From assembly GCA_944326355.1 (NCBI GenBank), contig CALVDO010000004.1, forward strand, positions 1 to 64,000: a DNA stretch of 64,000 nt, in the 5' to 3' direction. Positions 31,091-55,703 of the stretch are shown here, in pieces; within the stretch, counting starts at the first letter, position 1, and each line of letters begins with the position of its first letter. The position numbers and the translations under genes were made by a program. Source of the DNA: an uncultured Bacteroidales bacterium (lineage in GTDB: Bacteria > Bacteroidota > Bacteroidia > Bacteroidales > UBA932). The notes under the pieces are model-generated. The model was not told the DNA's origin and ran no database searches. It was given only the letters and a program-made list of their open reading frames with translations.

Positions 31091-32092
31091 TTATTCTGCC
31101 TTTCCGTCAGAACCGAGCACATTGATGATCTTGTGGATATACAGCTTCTTCATCTCGTCACGGGCAGGTCCGAGATACTTGCGAGGGTCAAACTCAGCCG
31201 GCTTCTCGGCGAATACCTTGCGCACTGCGGCAGTCATCGCGAGACGTGAGTCAGAGTCGATGTTGATCTTGCATACTGCTGACTTGGCGGCCTTGCGGAG
31301 CTCCTCCTCAGGGATTCCGATGGCGGCCTCAAGATTTCCGCCGTATTTGTTGATCATGTCCACATATTCCTGCGGAACGGAAGAAGAGCCGTGAAGAACG
31401 ATAGGGAAGCCCGGAAGCTCCTTCATCACGCCGTCAAGCACGTCGAATGCGAGAGGCGGCGGAACGAGACGGCCGGTCTTAGGATCCAGAGTACACTGCT
31501 CAGGCTTGAACTTGTATGCTCCGTGAGACGTTCCGATGGAGATGGCGAGAGAGTCGCAGCCGGTCTTGGTGGTGAAGTCAACCACCTCTTCAGGCTTCGT
31601 ATAAGTGTGATGCTCAGCCTGAACCTCATCCTCAACGCCGGCGAGTACTCCGAGCTCTCCCTCAACGGTCACGTCATACTGATGGGCATACTCGACCACC
31701 TTCTTGGTGAGAGCGACATTCTCGTCATAAGGAAGATGTGAACCGTCGATCATGACTGATGAGAATCCCATGTCCACGCAGCTCTTGCACAGCTCGTAAG
31801 AATCGCCGTGGTCGAGATGGAGAACGATCTGAGGATGTTCCCATCCGAGCTCCTTGGCATACTCGACAGCTCCCTCGGCCATGTAGCGGAGAAGAGTCTG
31901 ATTGGCGTAGTTGCGGGCGCCCTTTGAAACCTGGAGAATTACCGGAGACTTGGTCTCTGCAGCAGCCTGGATAATGGCCTGAAGCTGCTCCATATTGTTG
32001 AAGTTGAACGCAGGAATCGCATATCCCCCGTTGATGGCCTTCCTGAACATCTCCCTGGTGTTCACGAGGCCGAGTGTCTTATAAGATACCAT
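31091..32092 (-). CDS. fba: Class II fructose-bisphosphate aldolase
   Basis: The enzyme splits fructose 1,6-bisphosphate to dihydroxyacetone phosphate and glyceraldehyde 3-phosphate in glycolysis and makes it in gluconeogenesis. The 333-residue protein has the zinc-binding HLDHGD (92-97), VEGELGVLAG, SIGTSHGAYKF with the second histidine region, and VLHGSSSV with the third. It stands alone on the minus strand between the two polysaccharide loci with its own terminator. A -7 box lies about 210 bases upstream, implying a long leader. Confidence 0.96.
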   Translation of the reverse strand: MVSYKTLGLVNTREMFRKAINGGYAIPAFNFNNMEQLQAIIQAAAETKSPVILQVSKGARNYANQTLLRYMAEGAVEYAKELGWEHPQIVLHLDHGDSYELCKSCVDMGFSSVMIDGSHLPYDENVALTKKVVEYAHQYDVTVEGELGVLAGVEDEVQAEHHTYTKPEEVVDFTTKTGCDSLAISIGTSHGAYKFKPEQCTLDPKTGRLVPPPLAFDVLDGVMKELPGFPIVLHGSSSVPQEYVDMINKYGGNLEAAIGIPEEELRKAAKSAVCKINIDSDSRLAMTAAVRKVFAEKPAEFDPRKYLGPARDEMKKLYIHKIINVLGSDGKAE

Positions 32093-32360: not shown

Positions 32361-32391
32361 GTTGGATATATGAAAAACATCCTTAAATTTG
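32361..32391 (+). promoter_or_regulatory. Promoter of the alginate esterase operon
   Basis: GTTG at 32361-32364, a 19-base spacer and TAAATTTG at 32384-32391 make a good Bacteroidota promoter. Transcription should begin near 32398, directly at the double operator that follows, and run into the esterase gene at 32498. Confidence 0.6.
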
Positions 32392-32400: not shown

Positions 32401-32429
32401 AATTGGTCTACCAATCTGGTCTACCAATT
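32401..32429 (+). promoter_or_regulatory. Double GntR-type operator before the esterase operon
   Basis: Two inverted-repeat sites, TTGGTCTACCAA (32403-32414) and CTGGTCTACCAA (32416-32427), lie 13 bp apart. Each has TGGT-N2-ACCA, the form bound by FadR-type GntR proteins (TNGTNNNACNA family). The first TGGT starts 12 bases after the -7 box, so a bound repressor would cover the transcription start. The same 29-bp block, identical at 25 positions, occurs before susC at 35158. The likely ligand protein is the GntR/FCD regulator encoded at 54999. Confidence 0.7.
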
Positions 32430-32497
32430 GGACGCCTACGCCGGAAGAGGCACGCAAAGAGAAGTTCCGGCACATCACATGATTAAGACACATTGAA

Positions 32498-33508
32498 ATG
32501 AAACGCAGATCCATCATTTCTGCGGCTATTCTGCCGCTTTTCGCCGGCCTCACGATGCTGACTTCCGCCCAGAGCGCGGCGGCTCAGGAAAAAGTGCCGA
32601 CCAACAGATACTCCATGAAGCTGAGCCTCAATGAGGACGGCACATATTCCCTCCAGAAGGCCGAGCGCTATGCCGCCATCGTGGATCTCTCCAAGATAGA
32701 GGATCTTACCGTGCCTTTCACCCTTGTCCGCGAAAGACTCTCGTCAAAGGACTACAAAGGAGTGGAGACAAAGGAATTCACTTATAAAGTACATGACGGC
32801 TACGAGCTTAAGCTCAAGGTCGACCTCGCTGTGACTGACAATCCGGCGCCGGTGGTCTTCTATCTCCACGGAGGCGGATGGTCGAGAGGCACATTCGAGT
32901 CCAACAGGGTGCTGTCCCAGTATATGGCCAAGCAGAAGGGAGTGACCGGAGTGAGAATCGAGTACACGATGGACGGCGATCCTGAAGGCACTGTGGATGT
33001 GGCCGTACAGGATGTTCTGGACGCGGTCGAGTTCATCAGGAAGCATGCCGAAGAGCTCAATGTGGACCCTTCGAGAACAGGGTTCGTCGGCAATTCGGCA
33101 GGCGCGCATCTTGCCGCCTGCGGAGCAATGCTGTGCAAGGACGCCAAGGCTTTTGTAGGCTATTCAGGCATCTACGACCTGACCACGGCGGCCATTACCA
33201 CAAGGGCAAAGACTCCTGCCAGAGTGGCATACTTCAGGGACAAGGACCCGAAGACTCTCGCTGAGGCTTCTCCTGTGCGCATGATACCGAAAAGGAGGAC
33301 TCTGGCCGCGATGCTCGTGTGCGGCACGGCCGACATCACCGTCGAATGGTCACAGAGCCGGGAATTTGCCGAGGCTCTCGAAAAAAGGGGCAACAAGGTG
33401 GATCTCGAGGTGTACGAGAACTACGACCACAACCTGAGTTCCAACAGTTCGGACAAGATGGAAGAGATATTCTTCAAGACCGTCGGCTTCCTCTCGGAAA
33501 ACCTCTGA
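32498..33508 (+). CDS. Secreted alpha/beta-hydrolase esterase (alginate locus)
   Basis: The 336-residue protein has a signal peptide (about 1-30, ending SAAAQ) and an alpha/beta-hydrolase fold of the hormone-sensitive-lipase/carbohydrate-esterase type: oxyanion motif HGGGW (124-128), nucleophile Ser200 in GNSAG, an acid likely in CGTADITVEW, and His in NYDHNLS near the C terminus. Such enzymes remove acetyl or other acyl groups from glycans. It is the first gene behind the GntR operator at 32401, followed after 13 bases by a second esterase, so a role in de-esterifying alginate is plausible. The exact substrate is not shown by sequence. Confidence 0.8.
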   Translation: MKRRSIISAAILPLFAGLTMLTSAQSAAAQEKVPTNRYSMKLSLNEDGTYSLQKAERYAAIVDLSKIEDLTVPFTLVRERLSSKDYKGVETKEFTYKVHDGYELKLKVDLAVTDNPAPVVFYLHGGGWSRGTFESNRVLSQYMAKQKGVTGVRIEYTMDGDPEGTVDVAVQDVLDAVEFIRKHAEELNVDPSRTGFVGNSAGAHLAACGAMLCKDAKAFVGYSGIYDLTTAAITTRAKTPARVAYFRDKDPKTLAEASPVRMIPKRRTLAAMLVCGTADITVEWSQSREFAEALEKRGNKVDLEVYENYDHNLSSNSSDKMEEIFFKTVGFLSENL

Positions 33509-33521
33509 AAAAAGAACAGCC

Positions 33522-35060
33522 GTGAAACTTTGTTCCATTAATATCTTTCCGGCAGCGGCGTCTGGTGCGGCCTCGTCCCGCAAGGCGGCGCTGCCTTTCC
33601 TCATGATGGCCGCAGTCCTCTGCGCCCTTATCCTTCCGGCTGACCATGCCGCCGCCCAGACAAGGCTTCCGGCCCTGTTCAGCGACGGGATGGTGCTTCA
33701 GCGCTCGTCTGACGCCCCGGTATGGGGCTGGGACATTCCCGGCACTGAAATCTCCGTGACGGCGTCGTGGGACGGACGCTCATGCACCGCGACAGCCGGA
33801 GAAGACGGCAGATGGATGACCCGCATCGAGACTCCTGAAGCCGGCGGGCCATACGAAATCACGGTGCGTGGCTCAGAAGAGAAGGTGATCAGAGGGGTGC
33901 TCTCGGGAGAAGTGTGGATATGCAGCGGACAGTCCAATATGGCCATGCCGGTGAGAGGCTACACCTCACAGCCGGTGGAGGACTCGTTCCGGACCATCCT
34001 CTCCGCTCCGGAATATGGAGAGAGGATACATGTGTTCAACGTGACGAAAGACCCGGGGCCTGAAGTCAGGGAGGATTGCCGGGGTCTCTGGAAAGAGGCG
34101 TCCTGCGAAAGCGCAGCCTCGACTTCAGCCGTAGCATGGCATTTCGCCGTAGCCCTCACCGAAGCCCTCGGAGTCCCTGTAGGAATAATTGTCTCGGCAT
34201 ACGGAAGCACGAAGATTGAGCCGTGGACACCGAAAGACGCGCTCGAAGATGCTCTCGAAGGCGCCATTCCTAAAAAGCTCCTCGAGGAAAAGCTCTCCGC
34301 GCGGAATGTGGAGGGCAAGGCTCCGACAGAAGCGGGCTCGCTGTACAACAGCATGATAGCTCCGCTCTCACCTTACGCCGCCAAAGGATTCCTGTGGTAT
34401 CAGGGATGCTCAAGCAGAAAAGACTACGGCCATTACGCCCTGATGCAGACGGCGATGGTCGGAGCGTGGAGGCGCGCGTGGGGAGACGATAACGCCGAAA
34501 TGCCGTTCATATTCGCGACGATAGCTCCGCACGCATACGGAAATGCAGAAGACGCCGTCAGGGCATATTTCGTGGAAAGTCAGCTTAAGTCTCTGGAGAT
34601 GATTCCCAACAGCCATGCCGTGGTGACGGAGGGACTCGGAGAGAAAGACTGCATCCACCCGCCCAAAAAGCGGGAGGTGGGAGAAATGATGGCCTGGACA
34701 GCACTTTCAAAGACTTACGGAGTGTCAGGCATGACAGCAGGCTATCCGCAGTACGACAGAATGGAGACAGGCGAAGGAGTGGTGACCGTATGGTTTTCCA
34801 ACGCGAAATACGGGCTGTGCCCTTCGTATGGAGAGCCCGTGAAGGGATTTTACCTTGCAGGGAAAGACCGTACATTCCACGAGGCCACAGCCGTCATCCT
34901 CAAGAATCCGCTCAGAGTGGAAGTGCGCTGTGACGCAGTGCCGGAGCCCGTCGCGGTCAGATATTCATTTTTCAACTGGTGCGAATCCAACCTGACCGAC
35001 ACGTTCGGCATCCCGGTCCCTCCTTTCAGAAGCGACGACTGGCCCAATAACAAGGAATGA
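33522..35060 (+). CDS. Sialate O-acetylesterase-like (SASA family) esterase
   Basis: The 512-residue secreted protein has an N-terminal beta domain and an SGNH hydrolase domain of the SASA family. The nucleophile Ser138 lies in WICSGQSNM, and LWYQGCSS (about 287-294) takes the place of the usual WYQGE-N block. Family members deacetylate sialic acids or acetylated plant and other polysaccharides. It begins with GTG at 33522, 13 bases after the preceding esterase gene, and an ATG 27 codons later is a less likely start because it would cut the signal region. Its location under the alginate-type operator argues for acetylated uronate polymer rather than sialic acid as substrate (inference). Confidence 0.8.
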   Translation: MKLCSINIFPAAASGAASSRKAALPFLMMAAVLCALILPADHAAAQTRLPALFSDGMVLQRSSDAPVWGWDIPGTEISVTASWDGRSCTATAGEDGRWMTRIETPEAGGPYEITVRGSEEKVIRGVLSGEVWICSGQSNMAMPVRGYTSQPVEDSFRTILSAPEYGERIHVFNVTKDPGPEVREDCRGLWKEASCESAASTSAVAWHFAVALTEALGVPVGIIVSAYGSTKIEPWTPKDALEDALEGAIPKKLLEEKLSARNVEGKAPTEAGSLYNSMIAPLSPYAAKGFLWYQGCSSRKDYGHYALMQTAMVGAWRRAWGDDNAEMPFIFATIAPHAYGNAEDAVRAYFVESQLKSLEMIPNSHAVVTEGLGEKDCIHPPKKREVGEMMAWTALSKTYGVSGMTAGYPQYDRMETGEGVVTVWFSNAKYGLCPSYGEPVKGFYLAGKDRTFHEATAVILKNPLRVEVRCDAVPEPVAVRYSFFNWCESNLTDTFGIPVPPFRSDDWPNNKE

Positions 35061-35116
35061 GGGCCGGGGGCATGACAGAAAATAATGTCCGGACACGGAT
35101 TTTTTGAAATGGCGAT

Positions 35117-35148
35117 ATTGCAATTTTCAAATAATCTGGTCATATTTG
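35117..35148 (+). promoter_or_regulatory. Promoter of the alginate susC operon
   Basis: ATTG at 35117-35120, a 20-base spacer and CATATTTG at 35141-35148 resemble the -33/-7 boxes, with one mismatch in each. Transcription would start near 35155. The double operator begins nine bases after the -7 box, the same arrangement as at the esterase promoter. Confidence 0.5.
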
Positions 35149-35157
35149 TCGAAACTT

Positions 35158-35186
35158 AATTGGTCAACCAATCTGGCAGACCAATT
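35158..35186 (+). promoter_or_regulatory. Double GntR-type operator before the alginate susC
   Basis: TTGGTCAACCAA (35160-35171) and CTGGCAGACCAA (35173-35184) repeat with a 13-bp period. The block differs from the one at 32401 at only four of 29 positions, all inside or next to the non-conserved spacers. The distance from -7 box to first TGGT is 12 bases in both. Conservation of arms, period and promoter geometry points to one repressor acting at two promoters. Confidence 0.7.
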
Positions 35187-35260: not shown

Positions 35261-38200
35261 ATGCAGGCTTACAAGATTCTGGTCAATTGCCTTGCGACTC
35301 TCCTGATACTTTTCGGGAGCGGCATCTTCAGCAAGGCGTATGCTCAGCAGAAGACCATAACCGGTGTAGTGACCGACGATCAGGGTCCTCTCATCGGAGT
35401 GTCAGTGATGCTGAAGGGATCGACCTCAACCGGAACCGTCACAGACCTTGACGGAAAATACTCTCTGACGGTGGACTCCGCCGACCCTGTACTGGTGTTT
35501 TCCTGCATCGGCTACAGGACAGTCGAGGAAAATGTCTCAAAGACAGACGTGATGAACGTCTTTATGTCGATCGACGCCACTCTGCTCAACGAAGCCGTTG
35601 CCATCGGATACGGTACGGTGACTAAATCACATCTTACAGGCTCCGTCTCAAAGCTCGGAGGAGAATCACTGCTTGACACCCCTGTCTCTGACGTGACGAC
35701 AGCCCTCCAGGGACAGATCGCCGGACTCTCCATCAACAACACGACCTCCGAAGTCGGAGTGACGCCATCGCTCAGAGTGCGTGGGGCAGGGTCCATCTCT
35801 GCAGACAGCTCGCCTCTGGTCATCGTGGACGGATATCCCGTACCGGACGGACTCTCGACCGTCAACGCGGCGGACATCCAGTCCATCGAAGTGCTCAAGG
35901 ACGCAGCGTCCGCGGCCATCTACGGATCACGTGCGGCCAACGGAGTCATAATGATCACTACCAAGAGCGGAGAAATCGACAAGCCGAACTATACCGTGAA
36001 GGTATATCAGGGAATGAAATACGCATACAGGCTTCATGACATCATGACAGCCACAGAGTATATGCAGATGAGGGACTGGGAAGGCTCTCTCGGGGGCTCG
36101 AGCTCAATCGCCCAGGACAGGGCGGCCGCATGGCTTGAGCAGAACCTCGGCTCTACCGACTGGCAGAGGGAAGGCCTGCGCGACTTCACGGACATCACCA
36201 ACGTGCAGTTCTCGGTGTCCGGAGGAAAGAAGGGCATGAGGCACTACACTTCCGGGGCCTATACCCACGACGAGGGAATCATGCTCCAGAATGCGGTCGA
36301 CAAGCTGTCGTTCAGGACAAGGGCGGACATCGACCTCTCCAGAATAGTGAAGATGGGCTACAATGTGTCGGCCACCTACCAGAAGTCGAGCCGTCCCCGC
36401 AACAACTTCATAGACTTCTACCGCACGCCGTCATTCCTTCCGGTCTACCACAACGACTGGTCGACCGCGTTCACGGGAGGCTACACGGGCTTCGCCAGAG
36501 GTAGCCACTTCGCCAAAGTGCTCACTCCTACCGGGACGCCGGACGAGTACGGCAACCCTACATGGGAGGAATCTTCTCCGTACAGCTCGGCCAACAACAA
36601 CCCGAAGAGCGTGATGGCCAACACCGAGAGATGGAGCGAGAAATTCTCCGCGCTTGCCAACGTCTATATCGAGATTCAGCTCTGCAAGGGGCTCACGTTC
36701 AAGTCTTCAAACGGAGTAAACTTCAACTTCCAGCCTCAGTACAGCTACTCCAACGTCAACGCGACTAAAGACGGGATGCCGAGCGAGGCGATGTATGACA
36801 GCAGGCTCTACCTCGACCTCCTGACGGAAAACACCCTCAACTACAGCGGCACGTTCGGGAAGCACAAGATAGACGCCCTCCTCGGATATACGGCCGAAAG
36901 GACGAGAGTCCAGAGAGCGACGATGAACGCGACCGGCTTCCCGACTGACGACATCCACACTCTCAACGCCGCAACAATCTTCGAGCTCGCGTCAGAGAAC
37001 AACGGAAACGGAAGCGGCACCGGCACGTTCAGATACCCGGACGAGGTGCTTGAATCGGCTCTCGCGAGGGTGGCATACAGCTATGCGGACAAATATCTTG
37101 TGTCGGCGTCGATACGTCTCGACCGCTCGTCACTCTTCACCAGAGGAAACAGGAACGCGTGGTTCCCGTCGGTGTCCCTCGGATGGAGAATATCCGAAGA
37201 GCCGTTCATGCAGCAGGTGCGCTGGATAAACAATCTCAAGCTCAGGGCTTCATACGGAGTGACCGGCAACAACAACGTCGAATACTATGCCGCACTTGAG
37301 GTGCTCAACAGCGCCAACTATGTGACAGGCGAAGGCAACGGCTCTCTGGCAAACGGAGCGGCAAACATTTCCACGACCCTCGCCAATGAAGACATCACAT
37401 GGGAGCAGACGGATGAGTTCAATGTCGGTCTCGACTTCGGCTTCCTCGACGGACGCATCAATCTCACGGCAGACGGATACTACTCCATCACCCGCGCCCT
37501 CCTCTTCGAGCAGCCTACCCAGTCTTTCACAGGCTTCACCAAATACTGGAACAACATCGGCCGCGTCAGAAACGCCGGACTCGAAATCCAGCTCGACACC
37601 TACAACATCGAGCACAAGAACTTCTCATGGGAGACCAACATCAACTTCTCCTTCAACCGCAACAGGCTTCTGGAGATCGGAGGAGAGAAGGAGGTCATAA
37701 CACAGGGAGAACGCTCAGAGAGCTATATCGCCAGAGTCGGAGAGCCGCTCATACAGTACTACGGCTTCAAGACCATCGGCGTGTGGAACAGCACTGAGGA
37801 GATACAGGCCAACCCGCACTTCTCCAATGACGTGCCGGGAGGACTCAGAATCCTGGACGCAAACGAAGACGGAGTCCTCAACGACGAGGACCGCGTGCCT
37901 ATCGGAGATCCGTATCCCGACTTCTCATACGGCATGACCAACACGTTCAGGATCGGCCACCTCGACATATCCTTCCTCATTCAGGGAGTGCAGGGCGTGT
38001 CGGTGTTCAACGGCGACGTCTTCTATAACGAGACCCACAAGTACAACAGGGCATACGTCACTGACCGCTGGGTGAGCGCAGAACATCCGGGCGACGGCAA
38101 GACTCCGTACGGCAAGATAGGCTACGACATGATGCTCACTGACTACCCTATCCAGGACGCCTCATACGTCTGCCTCAGAAACGCGACAATAGGCTACACC

Positions 38201-38416
38201 TTCACGAAGAAGATGCTCAACAGCAAGCTGAACGGGCTGAGGATATACCTCTCGGGCAATAACCTCGCCTACATCTGGAGCAAGGACTACAAGGGAATCA
38301 ATCCGGAGTCGAGGATGACGAGCGGCGTATATGACACGCCTATGATCGACGGATACCAGAGAGGAGGATTCCCGCTCACTTCAACTGTAATACTCGGTAT
38401 CGACTTCAAATTCTAA
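35261..38416 (+). CDS. SusC/RagA family TonB-linked outer-membrane transporter (alginate locus)
   Basis: The 1051-residue protein has a signal peptide (ending about AYAQ), a carboxypeptidase-regulatory-like domain (TITGVVTDDQGPLIGV, about 30-110), a plug (GYGTVTKSHLTGSVSKL onward; SIEVLKDAASAAIYG) and a barrel ending GIDFKF. It should import alginate oligosaccharides captured by the SusD that follows 12 bases later. The flanking PL6/PL17 lyases, KdgF and DEH reductase set the substrate. A promoter with a GntR-type double operator lies just upstream. Confidence 0.94.
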   Translation: MQAYKILVNCLATLLILFGSGIFSKAYAQQKTITGVVTDDQGPLIGVSVMLKGSTSTGTVTDLDGKYSLTVDSADPVLVFSCIGYRTVEENVSKTDVMNVFMSIDATLLNEAVAIGYGTVTKSHLTGSVSKLGGESLLDTPVSDVTTALQGQIAGLSINNTTSEVGVTPSLRVRGAGSISADSSPLVIVDGYPVPDGLSTVNAADIQSIEVLKDAASAAIYGSRAANGVIMITTKSGEIDKPNYTVKVYQGMKYAYRLHDIMTATEYMQMRDWEGSLGGSSSIAQDRAAAWLEQNLGSTDWQREGLRDFTDITNVQFSVSGGKKGMRHYTSGAYTHDEGIMLQNAVDKLSFRTRADIDLSRIVKMGYNVSATYQKSSRPRNNFIDFYRTPSFLPVYHNDWSTAFTGGYTGFARGSHFAKVLTPTGTPDEYGNPTWEESSPYSSANNNPKSVMANTERWSEKFSALANVYIEIQLCKGLTFKSSNGVNFNFQPQYSYSNVNATKDGMPSEAMYDSRLYLDLLTENTLNYSGTFGKHKIDALLGYTAERTRVQRATMNATGFPTDDIHTLNAATIFELASENNGNGSGTGTFRYPDEVLESALARVAYSYADKYLVSASIRLDRSSLFTRGNRNAWFPSVSLGWRISEEPFMQQVRWINNLKLRASYGVTGNNNVEYYAALEVLNSANYVTGEGNGSLANGAANISTTLANEDITWEQTDEFNVGLDFGFLDGRINLTADGYYSITRALLFEQPTQSFTGFTKYWNNIGRVRNAGLEIQLDTYNIEHKNFSWETNINFSFNRNRLLEIGGEKEVITQGERSESYIARVGEPLIQYYGFKTIGVWNSTEEIQANPHFSNDVPGGLRILDANEDGVLNDEDRVPIGDPYPDFSYGMTNTFRIGHLDISFLIQGVQGVSVFNGDVFYNETHKYNRAYVTDRWVSAEHPGDGKTPYGKIGYDMMLTDYPIQDASYVCLRNATIGYTFTKKMLNSKLNGLRIYLSGNNLAYIWSKDYKGINPESRMTSGVYDTPMIDGYQRGGFPLTSTVILGIDFKF

Positions 38417-38428
38417 AGAGAGACAGTG

Positions 38429-39919
38429 ATGAAAAAATATATTTATCTTATCATCGCAGGAATTCTTGCGGCAGGCTGCAATCTTGACCAGTATCCGTAT
38501 TCCGAGGTAGCCTCGGATGACTACATCAAGGACGAGACCTCCCTTAACAATGTGGTCAACGGAGCCTACAATGCCCTGCACGGGGTGATGTACTATGAAT
38601 GGGCAATGACCGAACTCCGCAGCGACAACGCCAGAATGAGGCTGAACAACTCAACTTCAGCCGACTCGAAGCTCATCGAACAGCTTGACCAGGGCACGAT
38701 ACTCACGGCCAACTCGTGGGTGGAGGAATACTGGAACTCGGTATATGACGGCATAACGAGAGCAAACAACGTGCTCGCCAACCTCGACGTTGTGGAAGAC
38801 GGCGTGCGCAGGGCACAGTTTGAGGGAGAGGCCCGCTTCCTCAGGGCACATCTCTACTTCAATCTCGCCAGGCTCTTCGGGCCGGCGTTCATAGTGACAG
38901 GCAAGATGGGGGCGGACGAGGCCCGTCACATGCAGAGATCCTCTACGGATGACGTGTACGCCCTCATCGAAAGCGACCTCAACGCCATAGTGGACGGCGA
39001 GCTCCTTCCCGTGAATCTGGAGTCGGCCTATCTCGGAAGGGCTGACATGAAGGCTGCCAAGGCGCTCCTTGCCAAAGTCTGCATGACGCACTACAAGGCC
39101 GGAGAAGACCAGTATGCCTATGCCAAGGAACTTCTCGAGGACGTGCTCGAATACTGCGGCAACCCGACTTCCGCATCTTCACTCGTGCCATACGACCAGA
39201 TATTCTCAGTCACAAATGAGCTGAATGACGAGATAATCTTCACCGTGAGATACCGCTCCGGCAACATCGGGCTCGGAAGTCCGTTCTCCACCCTCTTCGG
39301 TCCGCTCAACAACGGAGGCAATGTGGTGATAGGCTCGCCGAAGCACTATAACTTCCCGTCCGACGACCTCATCGCCGCCTACGACCCTGAAGACCTCCGC
39401 CGCGATGTGGTGTTCCGTCAGGGATATGACAACGAGACTACCGGGCAATATGTCGAGGCACGCTGGTGCAACAAGTTCATGCAGAACGACATGGCAAACG
39501 AATATGACGCAGAGAACGACTGGCCGGTCATCCGTCTCGGAGACGTGATCCTTCTCTATGCGGAGATTCTCAACGAGCTTTCCGGCCCGTCACAGGATGC
39601 TCTCAACTACCTCAACATGATCAGGGAGAGGGCGGGAGTGACGCCTTATACCCTTGAGGAGCTGTCGTCGAAATTCGAGTTCAGGCAGGCAGTCCGCAAG
39701 GAGAGGAGACTCGAGCTGGCAATGGAAAACCAGAGATGGTTCGACCTGCTCAGATGGGGCATAGCCACAGAGACCGTCAACGCATTCCTCGCATCGGAGA
39801 CCTTCTATCAGGACTACGACTATGTGGTCAATCCGATAGCAGACTGGCAGACTCTGCTTCCTGTCCCTATCTCAGTGACCAACATCAATCCTGACGTGGC
39901 TCAGAATCCTGGATATTGA
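38429..39919 (+). CDS. SusD/RagB family outer-membrane lipoprotein (alginate locus)
   Basis: The 496-residue lipoprotein (Cys17, LAAGC) has the SusD plan: NNVVNGAYNAL, the helical repeats, EGEARFLRAHLYFNLARLFG, and the C-terminal AVRKERRLELAMENQRWFDLLRW signature. It acts as the oligosaccharide-binding lid on SusC. I chose the ATG at 38429; a GTG directly before it is also possible. It is shorter than the pectin SusD by about 140 residues, so the two are not recent duplicates. Confidence 0.92.
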   Translation: MKKYIYLIIAGILAAGCNLDQYPYSEVASDDYIKDETSLNNVVNGAYNALHGVMYYEWAMTELRSDNARMRLNNSTSADSKLIEQLDQGTILTANSWVEEYWNSVYDGITRANNVLANLDVVEDGVRRAQFEGEARFLRAHLYFNLARLFGPAFIVTGKMGADEARHMQRSSTDDVYALIESDLNAIVDGELLPVNLESAYLGRADMKAAKALLAKVCMTHYKAGEDQYAYAKELLEDVLEYCGNPTSASSLVPYDQIFSVTNELNDEIIFTVRYRSGNIGLGSPFSTLFGPLNNGGNVVIGSPKHYNFPSDDLIAAYDPEDLRRDVVFRQGYDNETTGQYVEARWCNKFMQNDMANEYDAENDWPVIRLGDVILLYAEILNELSGPSQDALNYLNMIRERAGVTPYTLEELSSKFEFRQAVRKERRLELAMENQRWFDLLRWGIATETVNAFLASETFYQDYDYVVNPIADWQTLLPVPISVTNINPDVAQNPGY

Positions 39920-39961
39920 CAGTCAAGACAAATGGAATACGGGACATTAAAACAAAGAATC

Positions 39962-47436: not shown

Positions 47437-49695
47437 ATGAAGAACATCATAAGAAATATGGCTCTCGCCGCACTGGCACTGCCCCTTGCAATGAGCCTTT
47501 CCGCCGCCTCGGAACATCCGAAGCGTCAGGATGCGGCTTTGGAGAAAAGCCATCCGATACTGATGCTGACGGAAGAATCCGTTGTCGAGATGCGCGAGGC
47601 CGCCGGCTCAGTGCCACGCTTTGACGCGGCGGTTGCGCAGCTCATCGCGGAAGCCGACGCCGCCGTGGAGAGAGAGCTCTGCGTTCCGGTTCCGAAAGAC
47701 GGCGGAGGCGGCTACACCCACGAGATGCACAAGCAGAACTACTATGACATGTATAACTGCGGAGTGGCATGGCAGCTCACCGGAGACGAGAGATACGCCG
47801 AAAAGACGAAGGAGATAATGTATGCCTACGCCGAAATGTACCCCGGACTGGGCTACCATCCCCTCGGACTCTCCTCAGTACCGGGAAAGATATTCTGGCA
47901 GACCCTCAACGAGAGCGTGTGGCTCGTACACACATCGGTCGCATACGACTGCATCAGGGACTGGCTGACCGAGAAGGACAGAAGGCATCTTGAGAAGAAT
48001 CTCTTTCGGCCGGTGGCCGAATTCATAATGGACGGGACTCCGGACAACAGGGCGAACAACGTCACCTTCAACAAGATGCATAATCACGGCACTTGGGCGA
48101 CGGCCGCCGTGGGCATGATGGCCATAGCGATGGACGATGACGACCTCCTCGACAAGGCCCTCTACGGCTCGGACGAGACGGGAAAGAACGGAGGCTTCAT
48201 CATGCAGCTTGACCGGCTCTTCTCCCCCGACGGATATTTCACAGAGGGAGCATATTACCAGAGATACGCGATATGGCCTTTCGTGACGTTCGCCCAGTGC
48301 ATCGACCACTACAGGCCGGAGCTGGAGATATTCTCATACCGCGACGGCATCATAGTCAAGGCCGTGGAGGCCCTGCTCCAGATGGCATACGACGGGGAGT
48401 TCTTCCGATTCAATGACGCTCTGGAGAAAGGCTATGATGCACAGGAACTGATATATGCCGTGGACATAGCCTACAATGCCGACAGAAGCAGAAAGGACCT
48501 GCTCTCCATCGCACGCGACAGTCAGGACAGAGTGCTCGTGTCGGACGCGGGATATGCGGTGGCCAAAGACATTCAGGACGGACAGGCCGAGCCGTTCGAG
48601 CTGAAGAGCCTTCTCTTCAGAGACGGAGCCGACGGGAATCAGGGCGGATTCGTCGTGATGCGCTCGCCGAGAGAAGACCAGAACAGCGCAGTGACCTTCA
48701 AGGCCACGTCGCACGGGCTCAGCCACGGGCATTATGACAAGCTGACGTTCGCATACTATGACAACGGGCACGAGATAATCACCGACTACGGCGCCGCAAG
48801 ATTCATCAACATCGAGGCCAAGTACAGCGGGCACTACACCGCCGAGAACAAGACCTACGCCATGACGACGATAGCGCACAACACCCTCGTCGCCGACTGC
48901 CGGAGCCATTTCGACGGCAAGATCAAAGTCTCATCCCTGCATTGGCCGCAGATGATGTGGGCGGATCTCGGAAAGAAGGCGGTGCAGACGGTGTCGGCAG
49001 TCGACACCGCAGCCATTCCGGGAGTGAGGATGCAGCGAGTGATCACATACGCCGACGTGCCATTCCTCGAATACCCTCTCATAATGGACCTGATGAAGGC
49101 GGAGAGCGCTCAAGAGCATGTCTACGACTATCCCGTCCACTACAACGGCCATGAGATCAGCCTCAGCGTGCCTTACGAGAAAGCTCTCGACGTCATGAGG
49201 CCTCTCGGAAAGGAAGACGGCTACAGGCATCTGTGGGTAGAGGCTCAAGCTCATGGAGGAGACGGAGTCACCTCATACACTTGGATGACAGGAGACAGGA
49301 TGTACACGATAAGCACGGCCACCACCCCTCAGACCGAGATATTCATCGTGAGGACGGGAGCGGATGACCCGAATTTCAACCTCCGCTCAGAGCCGGGCTA
49401 TGTGCTGCGCGAGAACGGCAGAAGCAGCCACACTTTCGCGTCCTGTATAGAAACGCACGGCCGCTACGACATGCAGGTGGAGCAGTCGGCCAACCTCGTG
49501 CATTCGTGCAAGGGAGTGAAAGTGCTGCACGACGACGGAGACCTCACCGTCGTGGAATACGAGTTCATAAACGGACACAGCGTCGTCCTCGCCTGCTGCC
49601 TCAGAGCCACATCGCCGCAGGAGAGGCATTCGGTGACACTCCCCGACGGCACGACGCTCACATGGACCGGAGCAGTGTCGGTGACGTGCCGATAG
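47437..49695 (+). CDS. PL17 family oligo-alginate lyase
   Basis: The 752-residue secreted protein has an alpha/alpha-barrel alginate-lyase domain and a C-terminal heparinase II/III-like beta-sandwich. Asn216 and His217 in MHNHGTW, and Tyr273 in EGAYYQRYA, line up with the substrate-neutralising Asn201/His202 and the catalytic Tyr258 of Alg17c (constant offset of 15); SHGLSHGHYDKL carries the further histidine. PL17 enzymes release unsaturated monouronate from the ends of alginate oligomers, giving the substrate of the KdgF-like protein encoded next. The signal peptide lacks a lipobox, so periplasmic action is likely. Confidence 0.93.
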   Translation: MKNIIRNMALAALALPLAMSLSAASEHPKRQDAALEKSHPILMLTEESVVEMREAAGSVPRFDAAVAQLIAEADAAVERELCVPVPKDGGGGYTHEMHKQNYYDMYNCGVAWQLTGDERYAEKTKEIMYAYAEMYPGLGYHPLGLSSVPGKIFWQTLNESVWLVHTSVAYDCIRDWLTEKDRRHLEKNLFRPVAEFIMDGTPDNRANNVTFNKMHNHGTWATAAVGMMAIAMDDDDLLDKALYGSDETGKNGGFIMQLDRLFSPDGYFTEGAYYQRYAIWPFVTFAQCIDHYRPELEIFSYRDGIIVKAVEALLQMAYDGEFFRFNDALEKGYDAQELIYAVDIAYNADRSRKDLLSIARDSQDRVLVSDAGYAVAKDIQDGQAEPFELKSLLFRDGADGNQGGFVVMRSPREDQNSAVTFKATSHGLSHGHYDKLTFAYYDNGHEIITDYGAARFINIEAKYSGHYTAENKTYAMTTIAHNTLVADCRSHFDGKIKVSSLHWPQMMWADLGKKAVQTVSAVDTAAIPGVRMQRVITYADVPFLEYPLIMDLMKAESAQEHVYDYPVHYNGHEISLSVPYEKALDVMRPLGKEDGYRHLWVEAQAHGGDGVTSYTWMTGDRMYTISTATTPQTEIFIVRTGADDPNFNLRSEPGYVLRENGRSSHTFASCIETHGRYDMQVEQSANLVHSCKGVKVLHDDGDLTVVEYEFINGHSVVLACCLRATSPQERHSVTLPDGTTLTWTGAVSVTCR

Positions 49696-49820: not shown

Positions 49821-50180
49821 ATGAAGACAAGAAGCAAGACATTCCAGATCGAAAAGGAGACCGCGTGGGAGACCACAGGTCCGGGCGTGAAAAGACAGAT
49901 CATGGGCTACGACGGCCAGCTGATGATGGTTAAGGTTCATTTCAAGAAGGGAGCCGTAGGCACCCTCCACGAGCACTATCACAGTCAGGCCACCTATGTG
50001 GTGAGCGGCAAGTTCGAACTCCAGATCGGAGACGAGAAGAGAGTGATCGAGGCCGGAGACGGCTACTATGTGGAGCCGGACGCTCTCCACGGCTGCGTAT
50101 GCCTTGAGGAAGGTACGCTCATCGACACGTTCTCTCCCGTACGCGAGGACTTTCTCCGCGCGTCCGGCCTGCTCAAGTGA
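49821..50180 (+). CDS. kdgF: KdgF-like cupin, unsaturated uronate ring-opening
   Basis: The 119-residue single-domain cupin has metal-binding candidates in TLHEHYHSQ (His50, His52, His54, Gln56) and His90, as in KdgF. KdgF turns 4,5-unsaturated monouronates from pectin or alginate into linear keto-uronate (DEH). The frame is open far upstream, but the start at 49821 gives the family length and avoids a frame overlapping PL17. It has no signal peptide, so the step is cytoplasmic, fitting a transporter and a reductase encoded directly downstream. Its product would also serve the pectin pathway. Confidence 0.88.
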   Translation: MKTRSKTFQIEKETAWETTGPGVKRQIMGYDGQLMMVKVHFKKGAVGTLHEHYHSQATYVVSGKFELQIGDEKRVIEAGDGYYVEPDALHGCVCLEEGTLIDTFSPVREDFLRASGLLK

Positions 50181-50224: not shown

Positions 50225-51526
50225 ATGAAGATCAAAGGATTGAGATGGTGGGTGATCTCCCTCATTGTGGCCATCACCATCATCAACTACCTGGACAGGA
50301 ACACTCTCTCCATCATGTGGCAGGGCATAGTCGAAAGCCTCGGCCTCATCGACAGGGAGGGGCTTACGGAAGCCGAATACAGCACCAGGACAAAAGAGCT
50401 TTACGCCTACATCAACATGTTTTTCATGGTGGCGTACGGCATCTCCCAGATGCTCTCCGGCAAACTGTATGACAAGATCGGCACAAGAAAGGGATTTGTG
50501 ACTTCAGTCCTCATCTGGGGCATCTCTGACGCCTGCACCTCGCTGGCGACAGGAGTAAAGTCTCTCTGCGGATTCCGCGCCGCGCTCGGTCTCGGAGAAG
50601 CCGGCCCGTGGCCGGGAGCAACCAAGAGCAACGCCGAATGGTTCCCGCAGAAGGAGCGTGCGATGGCACAGGGGCTGTTCAACGCCGGCGCGTCTGTCGG
50701 AGCGATACTCTCCCCTATCATCATCGCCCTGCTGTACACGGTATGCGGATGGAAGCTGACATTCGTCGTAGTCGGAAGCCTCGGCATCCTCTGGATTATC
50801 CCGTGGCTGATCATCAACAAGAAAGGACCGAAGGAGCATCCGTGGATAACCGACCGTGAGCGAGAATACATCATATCCGGCCAGCCTGAATGCAAGGTCT
50901 GCTCGGACAAGGGTCTCTCATGGAAAGAGCTGCTCTCCAACAGGAAGAGCTACGCAGTGATCCTCGGGAGATTCTTCCTCGACCCTATATGGTGGATGTT
51001 CGTCACATGGCTTCCGATCTACCTCTTCGATGTCTATAAGTTTGACATCAAGGACATCGGAATGACGGCATGGGTTCCGTACGTCGGAGCGGCGATCGGC
51101 TCGCTCACCGGCGGATGGTTCTCCGGATGGCTCGTAAGCAGGGGCAGAAGCGTCAACTTCGCCCGCAAGCTCTCCATCGTGATCGGCGCCCTGCTCACCC
51201 TTCCGTCACTCGTGGCGGTAGCCTTCGTGCATGACGCGGTTTCGGCTGTTCTCCTCATGGCGGTGATACTCTGCGGATATCAGTTCTCCATGAACAACAT
51301 CCAGACTCTCGCGAGCGACCTCTACACCGGGAAGAGCGTAGGCTCGCTCGCAGGACTCGGCGGAGCTGCGGCAACCCTCGGGACGATCATATCCATCTTC
51401 CTCGTGCCTATGCTGACTGAAGGCGGCAACTGGCTGCCGTTCTTCATCATGGGAGCTCTGCTCGTGCCGCTCAGCCTCATCTGCATCTTCGCATTCGGAG
51501 GAAAGATCGAGCAGCAGGTGAAATAG
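50225..51526 (+). CDS. MFS transporter, hexuronate (ExuT-like) family
   Basis: The 433-residue protein has twelve likely membrane helices and the N-terminal NYLDRNTLSIMW motif of the anion:cation symporter family that includes hexuronate transporters. The loop GKLYDKIGTRKG matches the MFS signature between helices 2 and 3. In this setting it most likely brings unsaturated monouronate or DEH from the periplasm into the cytoplasm. It lies 44 bases after kdgF and 47 before the reductase gene. Confidence 0.9.
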   Translation: MKIKGLRWWVISLIVAITIINYLDRNTLSIMWQGIVESLGLIDREGLTEAEYSTRTKELYAYINMFFMVAYGISQMLSGKLYDKIGTRKGFVTSVLIWGISDACTSLATGVKSLCGFRAALGLGEAGPWPGATKSNAEWFPQKERAMAQGLFNAGASVGAILSPIIIALLYTVCGWKLTFVVVGSLGILWIIPWLIINKKGPKEHPWITDREREYIISGQPECKVCSDKGLSWKELLSNRKSYAVILGRFFLDPIWWMFVTWLPIYLFDVYKFDIKDIGMTAWVPYVGAAIGSLTGGWFSGWLVSRGRSVNFARKLSIVIGALLTLPSLVAVAFVHDAVSAVLLMAVILCGYQFSMNNIQTLASDLYTGKSVGSLAGLGGAAATLGTIISIFLVPMLTEGGNWLPFFIMGALLVPLSLICIFAFGGKIEQQVK

Positions 51527-51573: not shown

Positions 51574-52335
51574 ATGAACTGTAAAAGACTTGAAGGAAAA
51601 GTTGCCGTCGTGACAGGCGGCGCCCGCGACCTCGGCCGCGCAGTTTCCGTGAAACTCGCACTTGAGGGAGCAAAAGTTTGTCTCAACTATTTTGACAATG
51701 AGGATGACGCCATGGCAACCCTCGAGATGATCAAGAAGGACGGGGGCACAGCCATCGCCGTTCAGGGAGACATGACCAAGGCTGCCGACGTGAAGAATCT
51801 CTTTGCAAAGACCGCTGAGGCATTCGGGGACAAGATTCACGTGCTCGTGAACGTGGTAGGCGGACTCGTCGGAAGGAAGCTCATCACAGAACAGGACGAG
51901 GCATGGTACGACTTCCTTATGGACGTCAACATGAGAAGCGTGTTCCTCTGCACGAGGGAGGCAGTTCCTATGATGACCGAAGGCGGCTCCATCATCAACT
52001 TCTCATCTCAGGCAGCAAGGGACGGCGGCGGCCCGGGCGCATCCATGTACGCCACAGCAAAGGCTGCCGTAATGTGCCACACGAGGGCGATGGCAAAGGA
52101 ACTCGGCCCTCAGGGCATCAGAGTCAATGCGCTCGCCCCGGGAATGATCAACACTTCGTTCCACGACAGATTCACCAAGCCTGAGGCAAGGGAGAACCTC
52201 CACCACACCGCACCTCTGCGCAGAGAGGGAACGGCCGCTGAAGTAGCCGACCTGGTATGCTTCCTCGCTTCCGAGGAGTCTTCATACCTCACCGGAACAG
52301 CCATCGACATCAACGGAGGCTGCCTCTTCTCATAA
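51574..52335 (+). CDS. SDR family 4-deoxy-L-erythro-5-hexoseulose uronate (DEH) reductase
   Basis: The 253-residue short-chain dehydrogenase has TGGARDLG (14-21), catalytic Ser145, Tyr159 and Lys163, and the C-terminal LTGTAIDINGG. The usual NNAG is NVVG (93-96). Placed right after lyases, KdgF and a uronate transporter, it most likely reduces DEH to 2-keto-3-deoxygluconate with NAD(P)H, as the corresponding gene does in marine flavobacterial alginate loci. A KduD-like 5-dehydrogenase is the alternative. KDG kinase and aldolase, needed next, are not in this window. A stem-loop follows the gene. Confidence 0.85.
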   Translation: MNCKRLEGKVAVVTGGARDLGRAVSVKLALEGAKVCLNYFDNEDDAMATLEMIKKDGGTAIAVQGDMTKAADVKNLFAKTAEAFGDKIHVLVNVVGGLVGRKLITEQDEAWYDFLMDVNMRSVFLCTREAVPMMTEGGSIINFSSQAARDGGGPGASMYATAKAAVMCHTRAMAKELGPQGIRVNALAPGMINTSFHDRFTKPEARENLHHTAPLRREGTAAEVADLVCFLASEESSYLTGTAIDINGGCLFS

Positions 52336-52355
52336 TCCGCAAGAGTACTGGAAAC

Positions 52356-52457: not shown

Positions 52458-52480
52458 ACGACACCGCTTTGACACGAACG

Positions 52481-53971
52481 ATGAAAACCACTTCACTTCT
52501 GAAACTTGCCGTTGCGACGCTTCTGCTTGCCGGCACCGCATCATGCGAAGACACGGCTCTCACTCCTTCGGACGGAGATTCCGCAGGCCAGGGAGACGAT
52601 CCGGGCAAGAATCCCGACGACGGCAACGGAGACGGACAGGACGGAGATGAGGACGGTGACGACAACGGAGAAGAGAACCCCGGAGGCGGCGAAGAACAGC
52701 CGTCGGAAGATCTCGTGATATCGTCTGCGGCTGAGCTCGAGGCCCTCGGCGACATACCGGCCGGGAGTACGGTCGTATGGAAAGACGGAGTCTACGAAGA
52801 TGCCGCTCTTGTCCTCGGCTGGACAGGTACGGAAGAGAATCCGATCGTTTTCAGAGCCGAGACCCCGGGAGGCGTGACCTTCACGGGCGCCTCATCGCTT
52901 ACGGTCAGCGGCAGCCGGATTGAAATAAGCGGCTTCAGATGGCGCGACCCCGAGCCTGCCGGAGAACATCTCATACGCTTCAGAAGCGGGTCGTCCCACT
53001 GCGTTCTCGAGGACTGCGAAGTGGACGGTTCGGGCAGCGAGCCGCGTGGCGAAGGGAGTTCGTTCAAATGGGTGTCACTCTATGGCACCGGACACACCGT
53101 GACAAGATGCGCATTCAACGACAAGAAGGACATGGGTGCCCTTCTCGTGGTGTGGCTCGAAGACGGAGTGCAGGCCGGCCATGTCATATCACACAACAGC
53201 TTCAGCCGTCCGGAGACCATTCTCGACAGCGAGGGCGAGCCGGCCAATGAGCAGGAAGTCATGAGGATAGGCGACAGCAGCAACTCTATGCAGGACGCAG
53301 GATGCATCATCGAGAACAATTATTTCCACAGCTGCAACGGCGAAAAGGCAGAGATAGTCTCCAACAAGAGCTGCGGCAATGTCTACAGGGGCAACGCATT
53401 CTTCGAGAGCTGCGGGACCCTCACTCTGAGACACGGCAACAACTGCACCGTCAGCGGCAACTTCTTCTACGGCTCCGACTTGTCTGACACGGGAGGAGTA
53501 CGCATCATCGGCGAAGGCCATATGGTGGAGAACAATGTGTTCGAACGCCTCAACAGCGTAGGCTACAAGGCCGCGCTCTGCATCTGCGCCGGGCAGGAGA
53601 ATCCGGAGCTCAGCGGATATTGGCAGGTAAAGAACGCCACCGTAAGAGCCAACGTGTTCATCGACTGCAACCTCGCCATGCACATCAACTACGGCAGCTC
53701 TTCAATGGTGCTTCCGGTGCTCTCCACCGTGATTGAAGACAATGTGGCCGTTACCCCTGAAGGACCTGACGGAAGCCTGTATGTGGTCAGATACGAGAAC
53801 ACCGATCCGCAGGCGGAGATCACATGGAGCGGAAACACGTTCTACGGCCGTTTCAGGAACAACTATTTCGGCCTCACTTCCGTAAAGACCCGTCCTGAGG
53901 TCAGCAGCTGCCTCGGGCAGATTGAAGACGTCGCCTCGGCGGCCGGCCCGTCATGGGACGCCGGACAATGA
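52481..53971 (+). CDS. PL6 alginate lyase lipoprotein with acidic linker
   Basis: The 496-residue lipoprotein (Cys22, TASC) has an Asp/Gly/Glu-rich linker (about 28-75) and a PL6 beta-helix. Lys296 in IVSNKS and Arg317 in TLRHGN form the catalytic pair, 21 residues apart. It is close in sequence to the PL6 at 43709 (shared CNGE-x-AEI, NKSCGN, TLTLRHGN), but is anchored to the membrane and so probably acts at the cell surface, supplying oligomers to SusC/SusD. The ATG at 52481 is preferred over a TTG four codons upstream. Confidence 0.88.
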   Translation: MKTTSLLKLAVATLLLAGTASCEDTALTPSDGDSAGQGDDPGKNPDDGNGDGQDGDEDGDDNGEENPGGGEEQPSEDLVISSAAELEALGDIPAGSTVVWKDGVYEDAALVLGWTGTEENPIVFRAETPGGVTFTGASSLTVSGSRIEISGFRWRDPEPAGEHLIRFRSGSSHCVLEDCEVDGSGSEPRGEGSSFKWVSLYGTGHTVTRCAFNDKKDMGALLVVWLEDGVQAGHVISHNSFSRPETILDSEGEPANEQEVMRIGDSSNSMQDAGCIIENNYFHSCNGEKAEIVSNKSCGNVYRGNAFFESCGTLTLRHGNNCTVSGNFFYGSDLSDTGGVRIIGEGHMVENNVFERLNSVGYKAALCICAGQENPELSGYWQVKNATVRANVFIDCNLAMHINYGSSSMVLPVLSTVIEDNVAVTPEGPDGSLYVVRYENTDPQAEITWSGNTFYGRFRNNYFGLTSVKTRPEVSSCLGQIEDVASAAGPSWDAGQ

Positions 53972-54039
53972 CGGGGCGGCGGACGAGAATACATGACCTG
54001 ACGACAGTCAACAATGAGGAACAGAAAGAAAGACATCAG

Positions 54040-54951
54040 ATGAAGACACTCAGAATAATATTATTGACGGCGCTTCTCTCGGCATCATGCGAAGAAGCCA
54101 GTCTGGCCGACGGCAATCAGGACAAAGACAGAGGAGGCCAGACAGACCCCACCGAAGACATCAGGAAGGAAGGGGCGCTGACAGCGGACGGCAACGACGC
54201 CGACACCTACAGCCTCATACTCAAATCCGGCTACAACTATGAGACGCCGGACAATTCCGGAGCCCATGCCTCCGCCCCGTTCAGGCACATAAGGCAGAGC
54301 TATGACGATGAGCTCGGAAAGTATGTGTTCGACTTCATCCTCCATATTGAAAATGACGATGACAGAGGCAAGCCGGACGTGACCGACAGGCAGAGGAACG
54401 AGATAAAGACCGACGCCAAGTCTCCTGCAGGCATGGTGGCACAGGAGGGCGAGACACTCAGGATGACATGGAAATTCAGGCTTCCGGAGGGGATGAAGAC
54501 CACAAAGGCATTCTCGCATATCCACCAGATCAAGGGAATAAGCGACAAGGAAGGGACAGCGGACGTGGCCATGCCGGTGTTCACTTTCACCGTCCGCACC
54601 CTGAGCAGCGGGAAACAGCAGTTCCAGGTGATCCATGTGGGTCCGTCCCCTTCTTCAAACACATATCTCGCAAAGGCTGACCTTTCTGAATTTCTCGGAG
54701 AATGGGTCGAGGCCACAGAGACAGTACGCTTCAGCGACAATGGTGCCTACGAACTCGTAATCAGAAGGATAAGCGACGGAAAAACGCTCGTCTCAGTCAA
54801 AGAGGACGACATCGCCACATGGCGCGAGGCAGCGGCAGGCATGAGACCCAAATGGGGGCTATACCGCAACTTCGGAGAAGACGGGTCGCTCAAGCCTGAG
54901 CTCCGGGATGAGGTGCTCAGATTCGCTGACTTCCTGATCGAGAAGCCCTAA
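54040..54951 (+). CDS. Lipoprotein with a jelly-roll polysaccharide-lyase-like domain
   Basis: The 303-residue lipoprotein (ALLSASC, Cys17) has three spaced motifs of concanavalin-like lyases: RNEIK (119-123), HIHQIKG (160-166) and KWGLYR (271-276). They resemble the R-x-E-x-R, Q-x-H and Y-x-K-x-G-x-Y blocks of PL7 and related heparinase I/glucuronan lyase folds. I cannot place it in a named family by eye. It lies 68 bases after the PL6 lipoprotein gene, between that and the regulator, so activity on alginate or a related uronan is the natural guess. The ATG at 54040 gives the correct lipoprotein signal; the frame is open 29 codons upstream. Confidence 0.65.
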   Translation: MKTLRIILLTALLSASCEEASLADGNQDKDRGGQTDPTEDIRKEGALTADGNDADTYSLILKSGYNYETPDNSGAHASAPFRHIRQSYDDELGKYVFDFILHIENDDDRGKPDVTDRQRNEIKTDAKSPAGMVAQEGETLRMTWKFRLPEGMKTTKAFSHIHQIKGISDKEGTADVAMPVFTFTVRTLSSGKQQFQVIHVGPSPSSNTYLAKADLSEFLGEWVEATETVRFSDNGAYELVIRRISDGKTLVSVKEDDIATWREAAAGMRPKWGLYRNFGEDGSLKPELRDEVLRFADFLIEKP

Positions 54952-54952: not shown

Positions 54953-54985
54953 ATTGGTGTTATTGGTTTAATTTTTATATCTTCG
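54953..54985 (+). promoter_or_regulatory. Candidate promoter of the GntR gene with TTGGT half-sites
   Basis: ATTG at 54953-54956, a 21-base spacer and TATCTTCG at 54978-54985 are a weak promoter match. Two TTGGT half-sites (54954-54958 and 54963-54967) overlap the -33 region as direct, not inverted, copies. Autoregulation by the GntR protein is possible but unproven. Confidence 0.35.
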
Positions 54986-54998: not shown

Positions 54999-55703
54999 AT
55001 GAAAAAATTTAAAATGACGAATTGTACGCATTCCAAGGAAGTTGCAGCAGTGATTGATCATGTGAGAGGACTTCTGGATTCGGGAAGGATAAGACCCGGA
55101 GACAGGCTCCCTGCGGAGAGAAGACTTGCGGAACAGCTTGGTGTGGGCAGGGCCTATGTCAGAACGGCATTCCAGAAGCTTGAATTCTACGGCATAGTCA
55201 GGACTTTCCCGCAGAGCGGCACCGTCGTGGCAAACCAGACTGTCCAGGTGCTGGAAAGCCTCATCTCGGACATGCTCCAGATAGACAACTACGACTTCTC
55301 CTCCCTCGTCCGCGTCAGGGTTCTGCTTGAAGTCGAGGCCATAAGGCTGTGCGCAGAAAACAGAAACGACAACGACATAGCCCTGATGAAGGCGGCTCTC
55401 GAAGACTGCGACAACAGCCTTGAGACCGACCGCAGGGTTGAAAAGGACTTCGCATATCATCAGGCCATAGCGAGATCGTCGCATAATCCTGTCATCGCCT
55501 CCCTTCTGCTTGTGATAACTCCCGACGTGCTGTCCTATTATTTCAAATACAAAGTGTGCGACACGCCTGCCGACATAGTGAGGCAAGAACACCACGACAT
55601 GCTGAGATACATTGTGGAACAGAAGCCCGACAAGGCGGAAGAAATGCTCCGCAAGCATCTTGAGGGAGTATGCCGCCTCGCAAACGAACAGAAGTTCCAC
55701 TGA
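54999..55703 (+). CDS. GntR family regulator, FadR/FCD subfamily (alginate locus)
   Basis: The 234-residue protein has an N-terminal winged helix (RIRPGDRLPAERRLAEQLGVGRAYVR, about 28-56) and a C-terminal FCD ligand domain (about 85-230). The usual metal-binding set is visible: Asp150 and His154 (DFAYH), His198/199 (EHHDM) and His220 (RKHLEG). FCD regulators usually repress and let go on binding a small carboxylic acid; a monouronate or keto-deoxygluconate would fit here. A GntR-type repressor of alginate use is known from the marine flavobacterium Zobellia galactanivorans. The matching operators lie at 32401 and 35158. Confidence 0.92.
   Translation: MKKFKMTNCTHSKEVAAVIDHVRGLLDSGRIRPGDRLPAERRLAEQLGVGRAYVRTAFQKLEFYGIVRTFPQSGTVVANQTVQVLESLISDMLQIDNYDFSSLVRVRVLLEVEAIRLCAENRNDNDIALMKAALEDCDNSLETDRRVEKDFAYHQAIARSSHNPVIASLLLVITPDVLSYYFKYKVCDTPADIVRQEHHDMLRYIVEQKPDKAEEMLRKHLEGVCRLANEQKFH

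Follow-up and report, generated by a model that had tools for sequence, protein, structure and literature searches.

AusR of Zobellia galactanivorans is a GntR-family repressor of alginate use (Dudek 2020; cited through PMC7874173, PMC8286568 and PMC8073546). In the excerpts of these accounts AusR is reported to bind its operator in one, two or three copies (PMC7874173), to be released by alginate breakdown products or metabolic intermediates (PMC8286568), and to be the first model of a one-component repressor of a polysaccharide locus in marine bacteria (PMC7874173). The subject here is a comparable arrangement in a 64,000-nucleotide stretch of DNA, hereafter the window, from an uncultured Bacteroidales bacterium of the UBA932 lineage (GenBank assembly GCA_944326355.1, contig CALVDO010000004.1, positions 1 to 64,000 of the forward strand). 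The window includes an alginate locus closed by a gntR gene, in which two near-identical 29-bp blocks, operator arrays 1 and 2, precede an esterase operon and susC, respectively. We consider it probable, at roughly 80%, that the GntR protein of the locus binds these arrays of palindromic units, spaced 13 bp apart, as adjacent dimers and would block transcription until an alginate product releases it.

The relatives compared below, for which G, L, C and f are our labels of genomes, loci, contigs and families, include orthologues from family f85, which we take to be Flavobacteriaceae (the G432 protein matches Zeaxanthinibacter sp. PT1). These flavobacterial orthologues share the 13-bp unit with the window, and AusR is likened to it by its excerpted description: both are GntR-family regulators in an alginate locus with one to three operator copies, and release by intermediates is reported for AusR. 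In the window a FadR/GntR protein is encoded amid PL6- and PL17-type lyases (PL, polysaccharide lyase), SusC and SusD proteins and a KdgF-like cupin; two double operators are present, and single, double and triple operators are found in the relatives. Because operator copies and release have been reported for AusR, we file the window as a putative AusR-type regulon in Bacteroidales, in which the promoter geometry and a repeat in the gntR promoter appear to be new. NanR of Escherichia coli resembles the window protein in its FadR-type fold and lines up several dimers next to one another along a repeated operator; as excerpted, the same account has NanR reading GGTATA direct repeats with a long N-terminal extension, whereas the window arrays are palindromic units at 13 bp (PMC8012715). 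The hexuronate regulators UxuR and ExuR belong to the FadR subfamily, as the window protein does, and UxuR sites are described in part of the source as having a 2-nt centre (PMC4494728). The alginate loci of Bacteroides eggerthii and B. ovatus share with the window the PL6, PL17, KdgF, MFS (major facilitator superfamily), SusC/D and FadR-family GntR genes, and the excerpted account names the regulator gene and describes no operator (PMC11381880). None of the titles and abstract openings surveyed names the 13-bp spacing, the repeat in the gntR promoter or the Bacteroidales operators described here; the original AusR paper may describe the period.

Array 1 (32401..32429, + strand; AATTGGTCTACCAATCTGGTCTACCAATT) consists of the units TTGGTCTACCAAT and CTGGTCTACCAAT, and array 2 (35158..35186, + strand; AATTGGTCAACCAATCTGGCAGACCAATT) of the units TTGGTCAACCAAT and CTGGCAGACCAAT, with 13 bp from unit to unit in each. 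A preliminary description of this DNA had located both blocks correctly, and sequence comparison confirmed the agreement at 25 of 29 positions and the exact 13-bp period. The gene assignments were borne out as well: the locus has esterase genes, susC, lyases of PL6/PL17 type and, at 54999, a GntR of FCD type. Its two TGGT-N2-ACCA sites per block are present except that the second site of array 2, TGGCAGACCA, is one letter off. The units read TTGGT-N2-ACCA, within the FadR-subfamily pattern TKGT/ACMA with 2 or 3 nt between GT and AC. When the organism's genome was scanned (2,401,007 bases, with the reversed pattern as control), TGGYNNRCCAN3TGGYNNRCCA had two perfect matches, which are the window blocks; no match had a single mismatch, three had two mismatches, and with up to three mismatches there were 50 matches against 46 for the control. 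Occurrence at many unrelated genes, which the preliminary description had named as the outcome that would tell against it, was not what the scan returned, the double site being unique in this genome. The single 10-mer TGGT-N2-ACCA was not enriched (14 sites against 22 in the control), nor was WTTGGTNNACCAAW with up to two mismatches (69 against 73). The double arrangement is therefore the carrier of the signal and, since the single-site scans stay at background, no further member of the regulon can be named from single sites.

A predicted promoter lies before each array. That of the esterase operon (32362..32391, + strand) has TTG at 32362-32364 followed after 19 bases by TAAATTTG at 32384-32391, and that of the susC operon (35118..35148, + strand) has TTG at 35118-35120 followed after 20 bases by CATATTTG at 35141-35148. 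The latter box is one letter away from TAnnTTTG, which we take to be the -7 consensus, and also precedes the arrays in L097, L176 and L177. In both blocks the first TGGT starts 12 bases past the -7-like box, as previously described. The arrays had been placed over the transcription start; they appear to lie just downstream of the predicted start, as judged from the -7 box.

At a cut-off of 1e-20, gntR orthologues were detected in 10 of 200 related genomes, and at 1e-25 a set of 395 genomes from the phylum gave 13 (own genome included in both counts); named genomes contributed 23 loci. A SusC search of 28 genomes gave 27 matches in 25 of them (L055, L063, L066 and L069 lie outside those 28); counting the window and dropping two second, weaker matches (L122 and L123) leaves 26 loci, three of which (L112, L120 and L121) have no usable upstream DNA. 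The alginate susC operon begins with two or three units at exactly 13 bp in 17 of the 23 assessable loci, and in 14 of the 23 these units stand immediately ahead of susC. An array was predicted before the esterase where susC follows it closely, and the prediction held in three of three cases: in L098, L099 and L100 susC lies close behind a SASA esterase with no site between, and a 13-bp double precedes that esterase. Triples are present in 9 of 10 assessable Alistipes loci, and the susC promoter of L119 has two units 17 bp apart. Over six groups (the window's genus; other named Bacteroidales; Alistipes; f3 and f19; f85; f83 and f86) the exact 13-bp pairs number 4, 1, 20, 2, 31 and 0, against 0.40, 0.10, 0.65, 0.25, 0.70 and 0.05 expected from shuffled flanks, counts in which close relatives are not independent.

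Inside the genus, the operator also travels with the gene. In a set of 121 genomes of the same genus, with a match defined as a double site with at most one mismatch or a single consensus site, sites were found in 7 of 8 genomes with gntR and in 4 of 113 without it (Fisher, 4e-8). Two of these four gntR-negative genomes carry an alginate locus. G081, with a double site and no gntR match at 1e-20, had seemed exceptional until a gntR fragment cut at the contig edge was found there together with alginate genes; G040, which is 73% complete, has an alginate susC with a site and no gntR match. The sites in G005 and G042, which have no locus genes nearby, and a double match in G124, which falls inside a long reading frame, were taken as chance. 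G061 has gntR and no consensus match; it has a core site only, and the DNA-binding wing of its protein differs. Comparison lends good support to the proposal of a GntR-controlled alginate regulon with double operators, through the uniqueness of the double site, the matching promoters of relatives and the co-occurrence within the genus; the earlier interpretation as a whole stands in part.

The window gntR (54999..55703, + strand) encodes a 234-amino-acid protein with a winged helix (PF00392, 59.3 bits) and an FCD domain (PF07729, 80.8 bits), the combination that defines the FadR subfamily. It is the only clear homologue in its genome, a second one on contig C11 having been set aside as weak (E 9e-4). 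Its closest named relatives are from an uncultured Bacteroidales bacterium (86%) and a Candidatus Cryptobacteroides sp. (69%). The structural model has a mean predicted local distance difference test score of 82 and a predicted template-modelling score of 0.61, and its Protein Data Bank matches are led by GntR/FadR-type structures with template-modelling scores of about 0.5. Assignment to NanR was rejected at 112.1 bits against an NCBIfam cut-off of 260, as was assignment to UxuR (50.2 against 442) or ExuR (50.1 against 396). Residues D150, H154, H198 and H220, presumably the metal ligands of the FCD domain (one Asp and three His), show no variation among homologues (37 of 37), and 43 of 44 locus sequences have them, the exception being the truncated L064; with these residues intact the protein would fit a sugar-acid ligand.

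In the mechanism that we propose, the FadR/FCD-type GntR of the locus would bind both blocks, as suggested by the co-occurrence within the genus and by the lack of another clear homologue in the genome, and would act as a repressor, to judge from the placement of the sites and the AusR precedent. One dimer may be anchored at the promoter-proximal unit, the better match of the two, with the second unit filled cooperatively; the period stays at 13 bp from family to family, which makes it plausible that two dimers bind cooperatively. The inducer may be a uronate intermediate such as 4-deoxy-L-erythro-5-hexoseulose uronate (DEH) or 2-keto-3-deoxygluconate (KDG), and release by a pathway intermediate is argued from the AusR precedent together with the intact FCD metal site.

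Several observations weigh against this mechanism. A double operator is not required at susC, as 5 of the 23 assessable promoters (L101, L102, L103, L118 and G061) have a single unit; L118 is counted here although a second unit matching at 6 of 9 letters chains to the first, and in G061 the one core unit lies 12 bases past TATTTTTG, upstream of a 798-amino-acid frame, an esterase and susC. Three of the 28 genomes (G599, G603 and G605) carry gntR and have no susC match at 1e-150; in one of the three (L053) a site lies ahead of gntR. L058 and L060 have no site within 20 kb of gntR, which is adjoined by AcrB-type efflux genes. Outside the genus 13 of the 79 other related genomes have a match, and the only one of them with gntR, G122, has the match away from the locus; these matches are background, and the co-occurrence is therefore seen within the genus only. 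Finally, the cooperativity of NanR depends, in the excerpted account, on a 32-residue N-terminal extension (PMC8012715), and the GntR domain of the window protein begins at residue 17.

The alternative that fares best, though we think it rather unlikely, is that GntR binds the units independently or alternately, the repeat raising occupancy or holding a dimer nearby with no contact between dimers. It would agree with the single-unit susC promoters, with a second unit that is often the weaker one and with a protein that has no NanR-like N-terminal extension. Such loose binding would need no fixed ruler, however, and most pairs in the different families keep to a period of exactly 13 bp. In f85, 25 of 53 operator groups are 13-bp arrays (16 double, 8 triple and 1 quadruple, of which a few weak ones may be chance), and arrays at 11, 12, 14, 15, 16 and 17 bp number 0, 0, 1, 0, 0 and 1; in f83 and f86, two arrays have a fixed spacing of 15 bp.

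Less probable still is that GntR acts as an activator or as a roadblock to elongation instead of hindering RNA polymerase at the promoter. The position of the arrays bears on this. Among the 21 Bacteroidales arrays that have a box 5-19 bases upstream, with the first box letter left free (L111 and 24 of 25 f85 arrays fall outside this count), the box ends 11-18 bases ahead of TGGT, the distance being 12 in seven, including both window arrays. A protein bound there could halt an early elongating polymerase. In these arrays the promoter-proximal unit is closer to the consensus than the other unit in 16, equal in 5 and worse in none. The f85 arrays are placed differently: the last two letters of TANNTTTG are part of the first TGGT in 21 of 25, so that array and box overlap instead of following one another as in Bacteroidales, and no exact box was found 5-24 bases upstream of any of the 25. 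Downstream sites are unsuited to activation, the f85 overlap suits exclusion of the polymerase, and AusR is reported, in the excerpt available, as a repressor (PMC8286568). An array that overlaps the -7 box or one downstream of it would, in either case, likely hinder RNA polymerase.

That another regulator binds the blocks and gntR merely travels with the locus seems very improbable. The assignment of the blocks to GntR comes from sequence comparison, a LacI-type gene is divergent from the susC array in G081, and three genomes have gntR and no alginate susC. On the other side, the unit matches the FadR-subfamily consensus with its 2-nt centre (PMC4494728, in part), the gntR promoters of relatives bear the same site, G061 combines an altered DNA-binding wing with a core site only, and consensus sites track gntR within the genus. 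A recent duplication or a chance repeat of no regulatory role, which the near identity of two blocks 2.8 kb apart might suggest, is largely contradicted and can be set aside, as arrays of fixed spacing and variable centre are found again at the corresponding promoters of other genera and families.

A second kind of repeat is found at gntR itself. Its predicted promoter (54953..54985, + strand) has a direct repeat of half-sites, TTGGT-N4-TTGGT, at 54954-54967, followed by the -7-like TATCTTCG; the sequence ahead of the gene is AATTGGTGTTATTGGTTTAATTTTTATATCTTCG, in which the half-sites repeat every 9 bp. TTGG[TA]NNNATTGGT is present ahead of gntR in 21 of 23 sequences (the window and L047-L068, with the exception of L052 and L066), with none expected in shuffles; the half-sites are conserved and the middle letters variable. 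The repeat is also found in L023, and was not found in eight other loci with G handles or in 12 loci of f83, f85 and f86. In the organism's own genome TTGGTNNNATTGGTTT has a single match and none further at one mismatch. The lone gntR orthologues of Alistipes sp. An66 and A. montrealensis (L058 and L060) have likewise retained the half-site repeat in the promoter of the gene itself. The preliminary description mentions neither this repeat nor the AusR precedent. We read the repeat as part of gntR's own promoter, with the first TTGG as a putative -33 box. Driven by its own promoter, gntR would go on supplying repressor when the long operon is shut, and the half-site repeat likely gives it weak self-control. 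The repeat resembles the direct repeats of NanR as described in excerpt (PMC8012715).

These features may be combined in a more tentative proposal, which we hold somewhat likelier to be wrong than right: one FadR-type repressor may read two grammars. At its targets it would recognize 13-bp-phased palindromes, the proximal unit nucleating binding and zero to two further units tuning the shut-off, and in its own promoter a NanR-like 9-bp direct repeat of half-sites that would set the repressor level. Across Bacteroidota the array would have changed its place with respect to the -7 box, with overlap in flavobacteria and a position about one unit downstream of the box in Bacteroidales, and the 13-bp ruler would have been kept.

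All genes of the locus are on the + strand. Array 1 precedes genes for a BD-FAE type esterase (32498..33508, PF20434) and a SASA type esterase (33522..35060, PF03629). Array 2 precedes genes identified with Pfam as a SusC-type TonB-dependent receptor (35261..38416), a SusD-type protein (38426..39919), two TIG-domain proteins (39932-41707 and 41720-43687), two PL6-type lyases (43709-45196 and 45209-47407, PF14592) and a PL17-type lyase (47437..49695, with the PF05426 alginate lyase and PF07940 heparinase domains). We take PF14592 to denote PL6 and the PF05426/PF07940 protein to be PL17. Between the PL17 gene and that of an MFS transporter (50225..51526, Pfam) lies the gene for the KdgF-like cupin (49821..50180, 119 amino acids). 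They are followed by a short-chain dehydrogenase/reductase gene (SDR; 51574..52335), likely for a DEH reductase as far as its substrate can be predicted, a third PL6-type lyase gene (52469..53971, PF14592), a PF14099 polysaccharide lyase gene (53953..54951, Pfam) and gntR. Intergenic gaps from susC to gntR range from -19 to 133 bases, and these short gaps make it likely that susC through gntR form one long operon. A scan for terminators between 51500 and 56500 found 4 against 4.7 expected. Between the SDR gene and the third PL6 gene, at 52351-52431, an inverted repeat of 17 bases around a 24-base loop is followed by two copies of the 16-base repeat CCATTTATCTTGACTM; this stretch may be a processing site, a terminator or a promoter within the operon. 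A guanylate kinase gene (55743-56333) begins on the same strand 39 bases past gntR, so that read-through from the alginate operon might reach it. A class II fructose-bisphosphate aldolase gene (31091-32092) is divergent from the esterase operon and has its upstream region in common with it. In G081 (L157, 1-1451) the LacI-type gene is accompanied by a sugar-kinase-like frame that by eye resembles KDG kinase, both divergent from susC and its double operator.

Operators flanked by promoters on both sides were found in a survey of promoter boxes in 40 pieces of DNA (39 loci and part of the window), which includes 34 near-consensus operators that match ATTGGTNNACCAAT at 11 or all 12 of its set letters. 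An exact TANNTTTG stands 7-16 bases ahead of TGGT on at least one strand in 27 of the 34; counted per strand, the exact box is in reach at 47 of 68 operator positions as compared with 27 of 2710 controls. Boxes are present on both strands in 20 of the 34 (L031 2524, L034 3263, L038 2420, L041 10737, L044 2798, L048 7547 and 14 more), where one operator lies amid two face-to-face promoters flanked by divergent esterase and lyase genes. An operator midway between two such TAnnTTTG boxes could, as a single site, silence both promoters, the two transcripts overlapping at the 5' end.

Worked-out one-component repressors are few among the polysaccharide loci of Bacteroidota. The operator code outlined here, that is the unit, the 13-bp period, the copy number and the position relative to the -7 box, would predict alginate regulons from sequence. 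It would also join the Bacteroidales system to the flavobacterial one, and it allows the part played by operator copy number to be put to the test.

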